Origin: a virus
Length of the DNA: 30,285 nt
Virus record (IMG/VR): IMGVR_UViG_3300025309_000040
Span: 1-30,285 of that record
Direction: 5' to 3' (one strand)
In this document: positions 8,015 through 11,086 of the stretch, in pieces
How the letters are laid out: the number at the start of each line of letters is the position of its first letter
Position numbering within the stretch: position 1 is the first letter of the stretch
Notes under the pieces: generated by a model
What the model was told of the DNA's origin: nothing
What the model saw: the letters and a program-made list of their open reading frames with translations, nothing else
Database searches by the model: none
Made by a program: the position numbers and the translations under genes

Positions 8015-8573
8015 TTTTCACCTGTGCGCGGAGGGAGAGAAGTTGTATCTGGACTGGTCGCGGCTGGATGCGCTCACGACGATGCCGCTGGCATGCATGC
8101 GGATGATGTCACAATACGCGAGTGAGACTCATGTGCCGGTTGAACGCTCAAAGGGCGAAATCGAGCGAATTCTGCGGCGCTACGGTGCTGAATCGTTTAT
8201 GCACGGTTGGGACCGCCTGAAAGCGGTGGTCGGGTTCGACATCAACGGCCGCCGGTACCGGATCGTGCTGCCGATGCCAGATACACAGTCTTTTCGGTTA
8301 ACCGAAACTGGCCGCGCCCGGGTGAAGTCATCGATGGATGCCGCGTATGAACAGGCGATCAGGCAGCGCTGGCGGGCGATGGCGCTGTGGATCAAAGCCG
8401 TGCTGGAGGCAGCGGAGGCCGGCATTGTCACCCTGGAAGAAGTGCTGCAGCCGTTCACCGTGCTGCCGAATGGTCAGACGGCCGGGCAATGGCTGGCGCC
8501 ACAGATCGAGGCGGCCTATCAGAGCGGTCGAATGCCGCCGCTTTTACCGGCGGGAAGAGGCGGAGACGAATGA
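7977..8573 (+). CDS. Conserved phage early protein of unknown function
   Basis: 198 aa from 7977. The conserved part starts near residue 44: SQYASETHVPVERSKGEIERILRRYGA, then F-INGRRYRIVLPMPD, QRWRAMALWIKAVLEA, GIVTLEEVLQPF, VLPNGQT and GRMPPLLP. I recognise this as a widespread phage/prophage protein near replication genes, without known activity. Homologues usually begin at the 'Y---T-V-V--S--EIE' region, so starts at 8103/8106 are plausible. The 7977 ATG has GGAGG unusually close (one base). It overlaps the initiator gene by 38 bases and the methyltransferase by an ATGA. Confidence 0.75.
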   Translation: MLPVIGARMLSTNFHLCAEGEKLYLDWSRLDALTTMPLACMRMMSQYASETHVPVERSKGEIERILRRYGAESFMHGWDRLKAVVGFDINGRRYRIVLPMPDTQSFRLTETGRARVKSSMDAAYEQAIRQRWRAMALWIKAVLEAAEAGIVTLEEVLQPFTVLPNGQTAGQWLAPQIEAAYQSGRMPPLLPAGRGGDE

Positions 8574-9421
8574 AATTCGGCAGTCTGTTTTCAGGCATTG
8601 GCGGATTCGATTTGGGTCTCGAGCGTGCCGGGATGCAATGCGCCTGGCAAGTAGAGATCGATCCTTATTGCAATCGGGTACTTGCAAAACATTGGCCAGG
8701 AGTAAAACGTTTTGGAGATATCAGACAAATCGAATGGAGCACAGTCGATCCCGTTGATCTTTTGTGTGGAGGATTCCCTTGCCAACCACACAGCCTTGCA
8801 GGAAAACGAGCAGGCAGCAGAGACGAGCGGGACTTGTGGCCAGAGTTTGCACGGGCTATTCGCGAGCTTAAACCAAGATGGGTTGTGGTTGAAAATGTCC
8901 GGGGGCTACTATCTAGCGAAGCTGGACGGTTCTTTGGTGGAATTCTCAGGGATCTGGCCGGCCTCGGGTATGATGCGGAATGGCAGGTGCTTTCGGCAGC
9001 GGCGTTTGGTGCGCCACATATCCGCGAAAGGGTCTGGATTGTGGCCTACCCCGCGCAACAATACGGGACCTTCGATGGATGCTCATCACCTGAGTCTGGA
9101 CGGGGCAGTTCGGCAGATGTGGCCGACACCCAAAGCAAACGACGCGGAGAAGCGCGGGAAGATTATGAACATACCAAGAAACGGCTTGCCTGCGGCAGTG
9201 CAGTATGCAACGCCCCAGGCGAGGGATTACAGAACGGGCTCGACCAAGAGAGTGGACGAAGCGCGAAAAGGAATCCGCTCGGTCAACCTGAACGATCAAA
9301 TTGGTGGGCAGTTGAACCCAACGTGGGTCGAGTGGCCCATGGGATTCCCCACAGGGTGGACCGACTTAGAGGATTAATGCCGCAGTTCCGCAAGTGGTGG
9401 AATGGATTGGACGGCGGATAA
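8570..9421 (+). CDS. DNA (cytosine-5) methyltransferase with frameshifted C-terminus
   Basis: Transfers methyl from SAM to cytosine C5. Motif I FSGIGGFDLGLE is at residues 7-18, the catalytic PCQ loop GGFPCQPHS at 67-75 (C71), ENV at 108-110 and IRERVW at 151-156. A variable target-recognition region (160-250) follows, then EPNVGRVAHGIP--VDRL. After RGL (9371-9376) the frame reads MPQFRKWW and stops at 9421. The -1 frame from 9376 instead encodes NAAVPQVVEWIGRRIM to a stop at 9441, which is the normal motif X (GNA-VPQ) and tail. A deletion of about 4 bases therefore seems to have removed motif X, so activity is doubtful. ATGA overlap with the upstream gene. An unrelated recognisable frame overlaps 8712-9377. 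Confidence 0.85.
   Translation: MKFGSLFSGIGGFDLGLERAGMQCAWQVEIDPYCNRVLAKHWPGVKRFGDIRQIEWSTVDPVDLLCGGFPCQPHSLAGKRAGSRDERDLWPEFARAIRELKPRWVVVENVRGLLSSEAGRFFGGILRDLAGLGYDAEWQVLSAAAFGAPHIRERVWIVAYPAQQYGTFDGCSSPESGRGSSADVADTQSKRRGEAREDYEHTKKRLACGSAVCNAPGEGLQNGLDQESGRSAKRNPLGQPERSNWWAVEPNVGRVAHGIPHRVDRLRGLMPQFRKWWNGLDGG
8712..9377 (+). CDS. Overlapping frame encoding a WPTP-repeat phage protein
   Basis: A 221-codon same-strand frame lies inside the methyltransferase gene. Its translation is not random: W-K-SGGYYLAKLDGSLVEF, FSGIWPASGMMRNGR, LWPTPRNN, MWPTPKAND, YATPQARDYRTGS, NLNDQIGGQLNP and a C-terminal WVEWPMGFPTGWTDLED. I recognise this motif order from phage proteins annotated as hypothetical or methyltransferase-associated. 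Start is uncertain (TTG at 8712, ATG at 8894) and no good ribosome-binding site is visible. Either true dual coding or a family of mis-called overlapping frames. Confidence 0.4.
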   Translation: MEISDKSNGAQSIPLIFCVEDSLANHTALQENEQAAETSGTCGQSLHGLFASLNQDGLWLKMSGGYYLAKLDGSLVEFSGIWPASGMMRNGRCFRQRRLVRHISAKGSGLWPTPRNNTGPSMDAHHLSLDGAVRQMWPTPKANDAEKRGKIMNIPRNGLPAAVQYATPQARDYRTGSTKRVDEARKGIRSVNLNDQIGGQLNPTWVEWPMGFPTGWTDLED

Positions 9422-9713: not shown

Positions 9714-9927
9714 GCGGGTGTGCTTGCTGCTCAAGTTGACGTTCCTGGAAGGAGTTGGCCGGCGCGAGCTATTCCGGCAGAGTCCGCCGGCGCGGATCTA
9801 TGTTTTCAGCAAGCGGCTGAGTATGACTCGCAATGGCAATAAATATACAAATAGCGGCATGATCGCCTTTGCCTGGTTCGTGTGGGTGAGGGGGTACAAT
9901 GGCAGCCCCCAGGTGGATTGGATTTAG
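9694..9927 (+). pseudogene. 3' remnant of a phage SAM-dependent methyltransferase
   Basis: Only the C-terminal third of the family is present: AIRLKAERVCLLLKLTFLEG, then PPARIYVFSKRLSMTRNG and AFAWFVWVRGYNGSPQVDWI. I recognise these as the end of phage Dam-like proteins whose N-terminus carries the NPPF catalytic motif. That part is missing here, and a TAG at 9691 closes the frame. A GTG at 9718 could start a 69-aa product. It ends five bases before the next gene. Confidence 0.6.
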
Positions 9928-9931
9928 GACG

Positions 9932-11086
9932 ATGATCGTAAACGCGAACGCACTTCATATCCCGATAGCCGACAAGTCCGTGCAATGTGTGGTCACGTCT
10001 CCGCCTTATTACCTCCTGCGCGATTATGGCGTTTATGGCCAGATTGGATTAGAGCAAACTCCAGACGAATACATAGCCAACATGGTCGCCGTATTTCGTG
10101 AGGTCTGGCGTGTACTGCGCGATGACGGGACGCTGTGGTTAAACGTCGGGGATAGTTATGCCGGCGGTACGCGTGGAGGCAATAGCGATTTTATTACCGG
10201 GAAATGGAAAGACAAATCAATTATTGACCGAGGTAAAAGAACATTACCCAGATGGGGCGGTGGAAACGTGCCGGCAACAGCCGGACTAAAAACAAAGGAT
10301 TTAATTGGCATTCCCTGGCGGCTAGCCTTCGCGCTGCAATCGGACGGCTGGTATCTGAGGTCGGACATCATCTGGGCGAAGCCTAATCCCATGCCGGAGA
10401 GCGTGACGGATCGGCCAACGAAAAGCCACGAATATTTATTTTTGCTGACCAAGTCACCGTGTTACTATTACGACGCCGACGCAATCAAAGAAGGCGTAAC
10501 CGGAAATGCGCACGCGCATGGCAAAGGGTATGGAAAGAAATTCGCGGATCCCGGACTGGGTATAAAAAGTAATACATCTTTTATGGGCGCAATTCACAAC
10601 GCCATCAAAGACGACCTGCCGACTTCCCGTAATCGTCGCACCGTCTGGACAATTGCAACGCAGCCTACCAAAGAGGCGCATTTTGCCACTTTCCCCGAGA
10701 AGCTGGTCGAGCCGTGCATTCTGGCTGGCACGTCCGAGCGCGGATGCTGCCCGAAGTGTGGCAAGCCGTGGAAAAGAGTAATTGAAAAAACCGGGCATGT
10801 GAACAAACGCGAAGATGCGCATGTGCCCAATAATACGCCGTCAAAAACCGATAGCACTGGCTGGGGCCCTACGAAGCGAGCAAGTGAAATTTGGATACCA
10901 GACTGTATATGTGAGGCTGGCGAACCTGTTCCGTGCATAGTGTTCGACCCGTTTGTCGGAAGCGGAACGGTTGAGCGCGTGGCAATCCGCCTGCGCCGGC
11001 GGTCAATTGGTATAGATTTAAATTTTAATTACATCAATAAAATCGCCAGAATTAGGACCGGCGAACTGCAAATCAGGTTGATATAG
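9932..11086 (+). CDS. Beta-class N4-cytosine/N6-adenine DNA methyltransferase
   Basis: 384 aa. The catalytic motif TSPPYY is at residues 22-27 and the SAM-binding motif DPFVGSGT near 339-346, the reversed order that defines the beta class. Supporting motifs: GTLWLNVGDSY, GIPWRLAFALQ, RSDIIWAKPNPMPESV, FATFPEKLVEPCI and GIDLNFNYI. A CCPKCGKPW/CIC-type cysteine insertion before motif I resembles the zinc knuckle of phage versions. The start at 9932 follows TTTAGGACG and the previous stop. The upstream 9899 start would overlap the remnant. Probably solitary (no restriction partner), protecting phage DNA. N4 versus N6 specificity cannot be told from TSPPY alone. Confidence 0.9.
   Translation: MIVNANALHIPIADKSVQCVVTSPPYYLLRDYGVYGQIGLEQTPDEYIANMVAVFREVWRVLRDDGTLWLNVGDSYAGGTRGGNSDFITGKWKDKSIIDRGKRTLPRWGGGNVPATAGLKTKDLIGIPWRLAFALQSDGWYLRSDIIWAKPNPMPESVTDRPTKSHEYLFLLTKSPCYYYDADAIKEGVTGNAHAHGKGYGKKFADPGLGIKSNTSFMGAIHNAIKDDLPTSRNRRTVWTIATQPTKEAHFATFPEKLVEPCILAGTSERGCCPKCGKPWKRVIEKTGHVNKREDAHVPNNTPSKTDSTGWGPTKRASEIWIPDCICEAGEPVPCIVFDPFVGSGTVERVAIRLRRRSIGIDLNFNYINKIARIRTGELQIRLI

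Follow-up and report, generated by a model that had tools for sequence, protein, structure and literature searches.

How can one stretch of phage DNA carry two conserved proteins in overlapping frames, and what is the inner one? The question is raised by a methyltransferase gene in the window, a 30,285-base virus record analyzed at its full length, whose genes include a terminase, a portal, a major head protein and a tape measure protein. A sequence-only reading had described a second same-strand frame at 8712-9377, and this frame is real: SGIWPASGMMRNGR, LWPTP, MWPTP, YATPQARDYRTGS and LNPTWVEWPMGFPTGWTDLED are all found in its translation. The same bases also yield two peptides, EPNVGRVAHGIP in the outer frame (9314-9349) and NPTWVEWPMGFP in the inner one, as had been noticed. 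Throughout, alpha denotes the outer and beta the inner protein, and motif names (I-X) are those of m5C methyltransferases. The features of the locus are these:

8570..9421, plus strand: alpha, the outer open reading frame; ATG start, 283 aa; motifs I-VIII, without motif IX, motif X core absent in the window copy
8698..8702, plus strand: AGGAG, Shine-Dalgarno-like; inside alpha, 9 nt upstream of the beta TTG
8712..9377, plus strand: beta, the inner open reading frame; +1 frame, TTG start, 221 aa, fully within alpha; WPTP repeats and motif IX
8768..8785, plus strand: alpha motif IV, GGFPCQ, with the catalytic cysteine (from the translation and the PF00145 match)
9039..9053, plus strand: beta unit 1, LWPTP, overlapping the end of alpha motif VIII, WIVAYP (from sequence and translation)
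9117..9131, plus strand: beta unit 2, MWPTP, where the alpha frame reads VADTQ (from sequence and translation)
9204..9215, plus strand: beta unit 3, YATP (from sequence and translation)
9312..9350, plus strand: beta motif IX, LNPTWVEWPMGFP, where the alpha frame reads EPNVGRVAHGIP (9314-9349); P replaces L at the W-x-M position
9371..9385, plus strand: remnant of alpha motif X, GLMPQ; relatives read GLGNAVVPQ, and about 12 bases are gone, in frame

Our preferred reading, to which we give a probability of about 0.88, is that of a split m5C DNA methyltransferase, with both subunits encoded by the same stretch of DNA at this locus. Motifs I-VIII, the catalytic core, would come from alpha, as would motif X in the normal case. 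Beta would be translated in the +1 frame from an internal ribosome-binding site of its own, contributing motif IX and, very probably, the target-recognition domain, in the form of the WPTP repeats. We infer that the two would pair into one active enzyme. This enzyme would probably be an orphan methyltransferase of the phage that protects phage DNA against restriction by the host, in line with the usual reading of such orphans as a means of evading host restriction (PMC8637289). No restriction enzyme was recognized among the nearby open reading frames that were scanned, which were part of the total. A second DNA methyltransferase, with a TSPPYY motif and assigned to phrog_67, lies just downstream at 9899-11086.

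Residues 1-164 of alpha match PF00145 (E 8e-53); alpha covers positions 3-163 of 329 in TIGR00675 and is assigned to phrog_363. Of the features that mark PF00145 members, the catalytic PCQ and motifs I-VIII are found in alpha, motif IX is present but lies in beta and is absent from alpha, and the motif X signature GNxVxP is absent from window alpha but present in other nested relatives. The frame at 8570 had been called a canonical m5C methyltransferase; the description holds for motifs I-VIII and needs qualifying beyond them, where motif IX is missing and so, in the window copy, is the motif X core, GNAVV.

One alternative is that the window holds a two-frame enzyme whose copy is decaying or was sequenced with an error. 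This is compatible with the preferred reading, and we consider it a serious possibility, if somewhat short of an even chance. The missing motif X core is unique to the window among 128 dereplicated nested alphas, a result obtained after ten automatic misses were read by eye. In beta motif IX, codon 9336-9338 encodes P, whereas 105 of 113 relatives have L and only 2 of the 113 share the P. Still, both frames are fully open, and the loss in motif X keeps the frame. The window pair may be inactive, or its sequence may be in error. Because the motif X core is lost and the P in motif IX is rare, we claim the split-enzyme mechanism for the family and do not claim activity for the window copy.

The nature of beta emerges from relatives in which its parts occur in other settings. 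Window beta itself matches phrog_1008 ('DNA methyltransferase') with E about 5e-30 to 6e-30. In the relative L114, LNPDWVEWLMGYP stands in a single chain with motifs I-VIII and X, and this chain matches positions 2-322 of 324 in PF00145. By phmmer, LNPDWVEWLMGYP aligns gap-free, and on into GNSVV, with KLHPRECARVMGYP, which is motif IX of M.HhaI; the motif IX stretch of this alignment is weak alone (6 bits) but collinear with the rest. The beta profile in turn matches L114 at the motif IX site (97.6%, E 3e-12). A further relative, L265, has the classical RRLTPTECERLQGFPDNWTE and GNAVTVNV in its +1 frame, which covers TIGR00675 positions 181-329 of 329 (E 4e-20). L265 falls in the neighboring clade and may be a single-chain gene with a frameshift, so it speaks for what the parts are and not for the nested lifestyle. 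Together, these computed comparisons identify the C-terminus of beta as motif IX. In the single-chain protein of WillSterrel, WPTP repeats lie between motifs VIII and IX, read in frame, which is the place of the recognition domain. The WPTP repeats of beta are thus very probably the target-recognition part, and as such they would read the DNA. Beta-like proteins are also encoded by separate, non-nested genes, such as Eagle gp77, which carries motifs IX and X; it falls into phrog_1008 (E 1e-79), as does window beta. A search of the PDB with the beta profile found no chain, and Pfam gave no family for window beta and, among 115 members, one marginal match at chance level only. AlphaFold2, run on beta alone with 69 relatives, gave no confident fold (pLDDT 59, pTM 0.27).

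Beta is a selected and separately initiated frame, as computation across the family shows. As regards initiation, the most upstream beta start codon follows a Shine-Dalgarno (SD) sequence in 77 of 126 loci, compared with 206 of 2012 later in-frame starts (p 2e-39). This first start is an ATG in 94 of the 126 loci and often stands directly after an in-frame stop; where beta starts are internal to alpha, 40 of 53 are preceded by an SD. The TTG of the window occupies the position of the ATG in relatives, 19 codons upstream of motif IV, and an in-frame TAA stands shortly upstream of it. Such starts weigh against the idea of a single chain in which programmed +1 frameshifting near motif VIII would link alpha motifs I-VIII to the inner frame. 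The inner frame does run straight on from motif VIII, where IVAYP and LWPTP share bases, and the Eagle tandem pair switches frame exactly at motif VIII. However, beta has an SD-preceded start of its own well upstream, the stretch of beta before motif VIII was counted as stop-free too, and a second shift would be required to get to motif X in alpha. We consider a frameshift improbable.

Could the inner frame instead be a by-product of codon choice and conserved motifs, with only the outer methyltransferase being real? When, for the window alone, the synonymous codons of the outer gene were shuffled, with protein and codon usage kept, the +1 frame was stop-free in 5% of shuffles over motifs IV-VIII and in 4% over VIII-IX, so the open frame of the window is by itself only mildly unlikely. 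The conserved motifs of alpha also impose some conservation on the +1 frame. The family tells otherwise. Stops scattered through the second frame of relatives were sought across 128 dereplicated nested loci, and there were 0 over motifs VIII-IX, against 180.8 expected (sd 8.9), and 11 over IV-VIII, against 192.1 expected (sd 9.0); the +2 frame of these loci shows no stop depletion. As unrelated controls we took E. coli dcm together with PF00145 genes from other genomes, chosen without regard to the nested family. Their +1 frames over IV-VIII are near expectation (21 vs 24.2 and 57 vs 62.6), which means that +1 stop avoidance is not general to m5C methyltransferases. We had considered that the openness of beta might be such a general property, and we reject this because the unrelated PF00145 genes show no avoidance.

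Complete single-chain relatives behave differently from the unrelated controls. Their +1 frame over IV-VIII is also stop-free (0 vs 25.1 expected, 12 loci; L261, L266-L303) and ends in SLSDILEExxDxKYFLSEK, though the outer protein has all motifs. This frame makes up phrog_16143, and in phage MM1 it carries the annotation 'C5 methyltransferase beta subunit'. Openness in that region therefore does not, by itself, show a recognition subunit.

The stretch between motifs VIII and IX is where the two frames can be told apart by selection. We took 25 independent pairs and sorted their substitutions by what each does in the two frames, a per-frame check that the sequence-only reading had proposed. Over VIII-IX, substitutions that leave beta unchanged while altering alpha amount to 0.288 per site and those with the converse effect to 0.132, and the dN/dS-type ratio is 0.45 [0.32-0.59] for beta and 0.99 [0.85-1.15] for alpha. 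Alpha is the selected frame before motif VIII (0.14) and after motif IX (0.24). Because first codon positions are as a rule under less constraint than second ones, a value close to 0.5 is weak evidence alone. The stronger point is the comparison with single-chain controls, in which the VIII-IX pattern is reversed (0.110 vs 0.271). Protein identity over VIII-IX is 77.8% for beta, 68.5% for alpha and 66.8% for the third frame in an alignment built on alpha, and beta identity exceeds that of alpha both in VIII-IX and in IX. Thus, by computation, selection over VIII-IX acts on the beta frame, while the alpha frame is nearly neutral there. This frame-specific selection makes the gene a mosaic: one frame holds the catalytic motifs, and the other holds motif IX and the recognition stretch.

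A by-product of the outer gene would be hard to square with 0 stops where 181 are expected and no such depletion in +2 or in unrelated methyltransferases, with a VIII-IX stretch where beta is selected and alpha nearly neutral, with SD-preceded beta starts, or with beta-like proteins as separate non-nested genes such as Eagle gp77; we think it very unlikely. It is just as unlikely that the WPTP units, which do repeat and vary in number among relatives, are kept as DNA repeats for recombination and not as protein, since beta-silent substitutions are more than twice as frequent as beta-altering ones and WPTP/LPTP is kept as protein, read in frame, in single-chain WillSterrel. Overprinting with two functional products, one of the options originally raised, is supported at the level of the family by stop avoidance, frame-specific selection and beta's own ribosome-binding sites. 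What that option missed is that, on our reading, the inner and the outer protein are halves of one enzyme, the inner half carrying motif IX and probably the target-recognition part.

How widespread is the nested arrangement? A tblastn search with the inner protein matched 67 phage records. Nine of these were fetched; methyltransferase motifs stand in the other frame in all nine, and seven keep the inner frame free of stops across the matched region. A diverged inner protein (L152) matched 274 records when used as the query. In IMG/VR, a DNA pattern for the peptide NPxxWVEWLMGxP, which makes no demand on the other frame or on openness, occurs at at least 121 places; among the matches listed, at least 96 lie within a methyltransferase whose motifs IV and VI are read in the other frame, and most of the remainder are cut-off contigs or other splits. 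Starting from the outer protein as query led again to nested pairs, alongside complete single-chain relatives. A plasmid search with window beta gave one match. Annotation of these loci is uneven. Both genes are annotated in Paenibacillus phage Bloom, whereas for two E. coli prophages the annotation covers the outer gene alone, in one case as a pseudogene. The suspicion of a database-wide mis-call therefore pointed in the wrong direction, since the inner gene is often omitted from annotation. At L309:1510-2271, an E. coli prophage locus, RefSeq lists alpha as a pseudogene because of an internal stop, and since beta is also interrupted by a stop at this point, both halves are broken.

It is useful to compare the window with known systems. 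Judged by its arrangement, it is of the M.EcoHK31I kind, which is known. The small gene of M.EcoHK31I reportedly lies inside the large one in another frame (Lee et al. 1995). As in the window, M.EcoHK31I (YGGCCR, m5C) is made as two polypeptides from one locus with motif IX in the small one. Here, too, motif IX belongs to a second polypeptide encoded in another frame inside the first gene, 8712-9377 within 8570-9421. M.EcoHK31I needs both polypeptides, the larger holding motifs I-VIII, X and the predicted recognition domain and the smaller holding motif IX (PMC3404938). The large chain thus combines I-VIII with X, whereas window alpha has I-VIII with the X core lost; nested relatives keep X. 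The recognition domain of M.EcoHK31I was predicted in the large chain, whereas here selection puts the recognition stretch in the inner frame. This placement and the breadth of the arrangement are what is unexpected relative to M.EcoHK31I. M.AquI (CYCGRG) is likewise an m5C methyltransferase split between VIII and IX into two chains. Its second chain holds IX and X, as in Eagle gp78/gp77, L048 and L058. In contrast, window beta ends just past motif IX, the pair is nested, and motif X belongs to alpha.

Other phage genes resemble the window in part. In Streptococcus phage MM1 (L346:1153-1578), nested C5 methyltransferase alpha and beta are annotated, beta (phrog_16143) being +1 over IV-VIII; unlike in the window, motifs IX and X are read in frame in alpha, and beta stops short of the recognition domain. 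The ShiLan insertion in actinophage methylases also places a second protein out of frame in a phage methylase gene, but that protein is an inserted homing HNH endonuclease and no part of the enzyme (PMC11855218). The name of phrog_1008, 'DNA methyltransferase', to which window beta and Eagle gp77 belong, hides the half-enzyme status of its members, many of which are nested. Our search of the open literature, with most subscription papers outside it, found no account of a nested methyltransferase as a widespread phage family.

The reading of the locus as a split enzyme may be relevant in several ways. First, it turns an apparent annotation oddity into a testable statement, that two overlapping frames encode the halves of a single enzyme. 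By implication, many database phage 'DNA cytosine methyltransferases' represent just half of an enzyme, and the annotated gene by itself is not enough to tell their specificity. Second, the family is a large natural data set on selection in overlapping genes. Finally, it suggests that the recognition domain of M.EcoHK31I-like enzymes sits in the small subunit. We lean modestly toward a broader view, in which these loci form a large and often unannotated phage class with the target-recognition domain in an overprinted frame. The middle of alpha would be a near-neutral spacer, beta could evolve new specificity without touching catalytic residues, poly-G tracts could switch both subunits in some members, and the placing of the M.EcoHK31I domain would have to be revised.

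The same parts occur in several layouts. The nested layout is the commonest among relatives. The single-chain layout occurs in L114 and WillSterrel, and tandem genes that switch frame at the VIII/LPTP junction occur in Eagle gp78/gp77 and Vash 32/33. In L048, L058 and L023, alpha ends after motif VIII and both IX and X are in beta, and L092 is in three pieces. In a tree of the I-VIII core, these layouts form one clade (100/99), separate from the complete single-chain group, and within it single-chain, tandem and other forms are scattered among nested ones. An origin of one family from a frameshifted form of the other had been proposed. One segment is indeed used in frame, in tandem or nested, with the forms intermixed in the tree, which makes the proposal partly right. 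The nested layout may be the older state of the clade, on a tree whose root is not fixed. Poly-G tracts lie within the overlap in L037 and L049 (G14 in each, immediately behind motif VIII), L132 (G10), L079 (G15), L106 (G10) and L054 (G9). In L037, L049 and L132, each subunit shifts its frame across the tract, as would be expected if phase variation in tract length could switch both subunits together; assembly error is the alternative.
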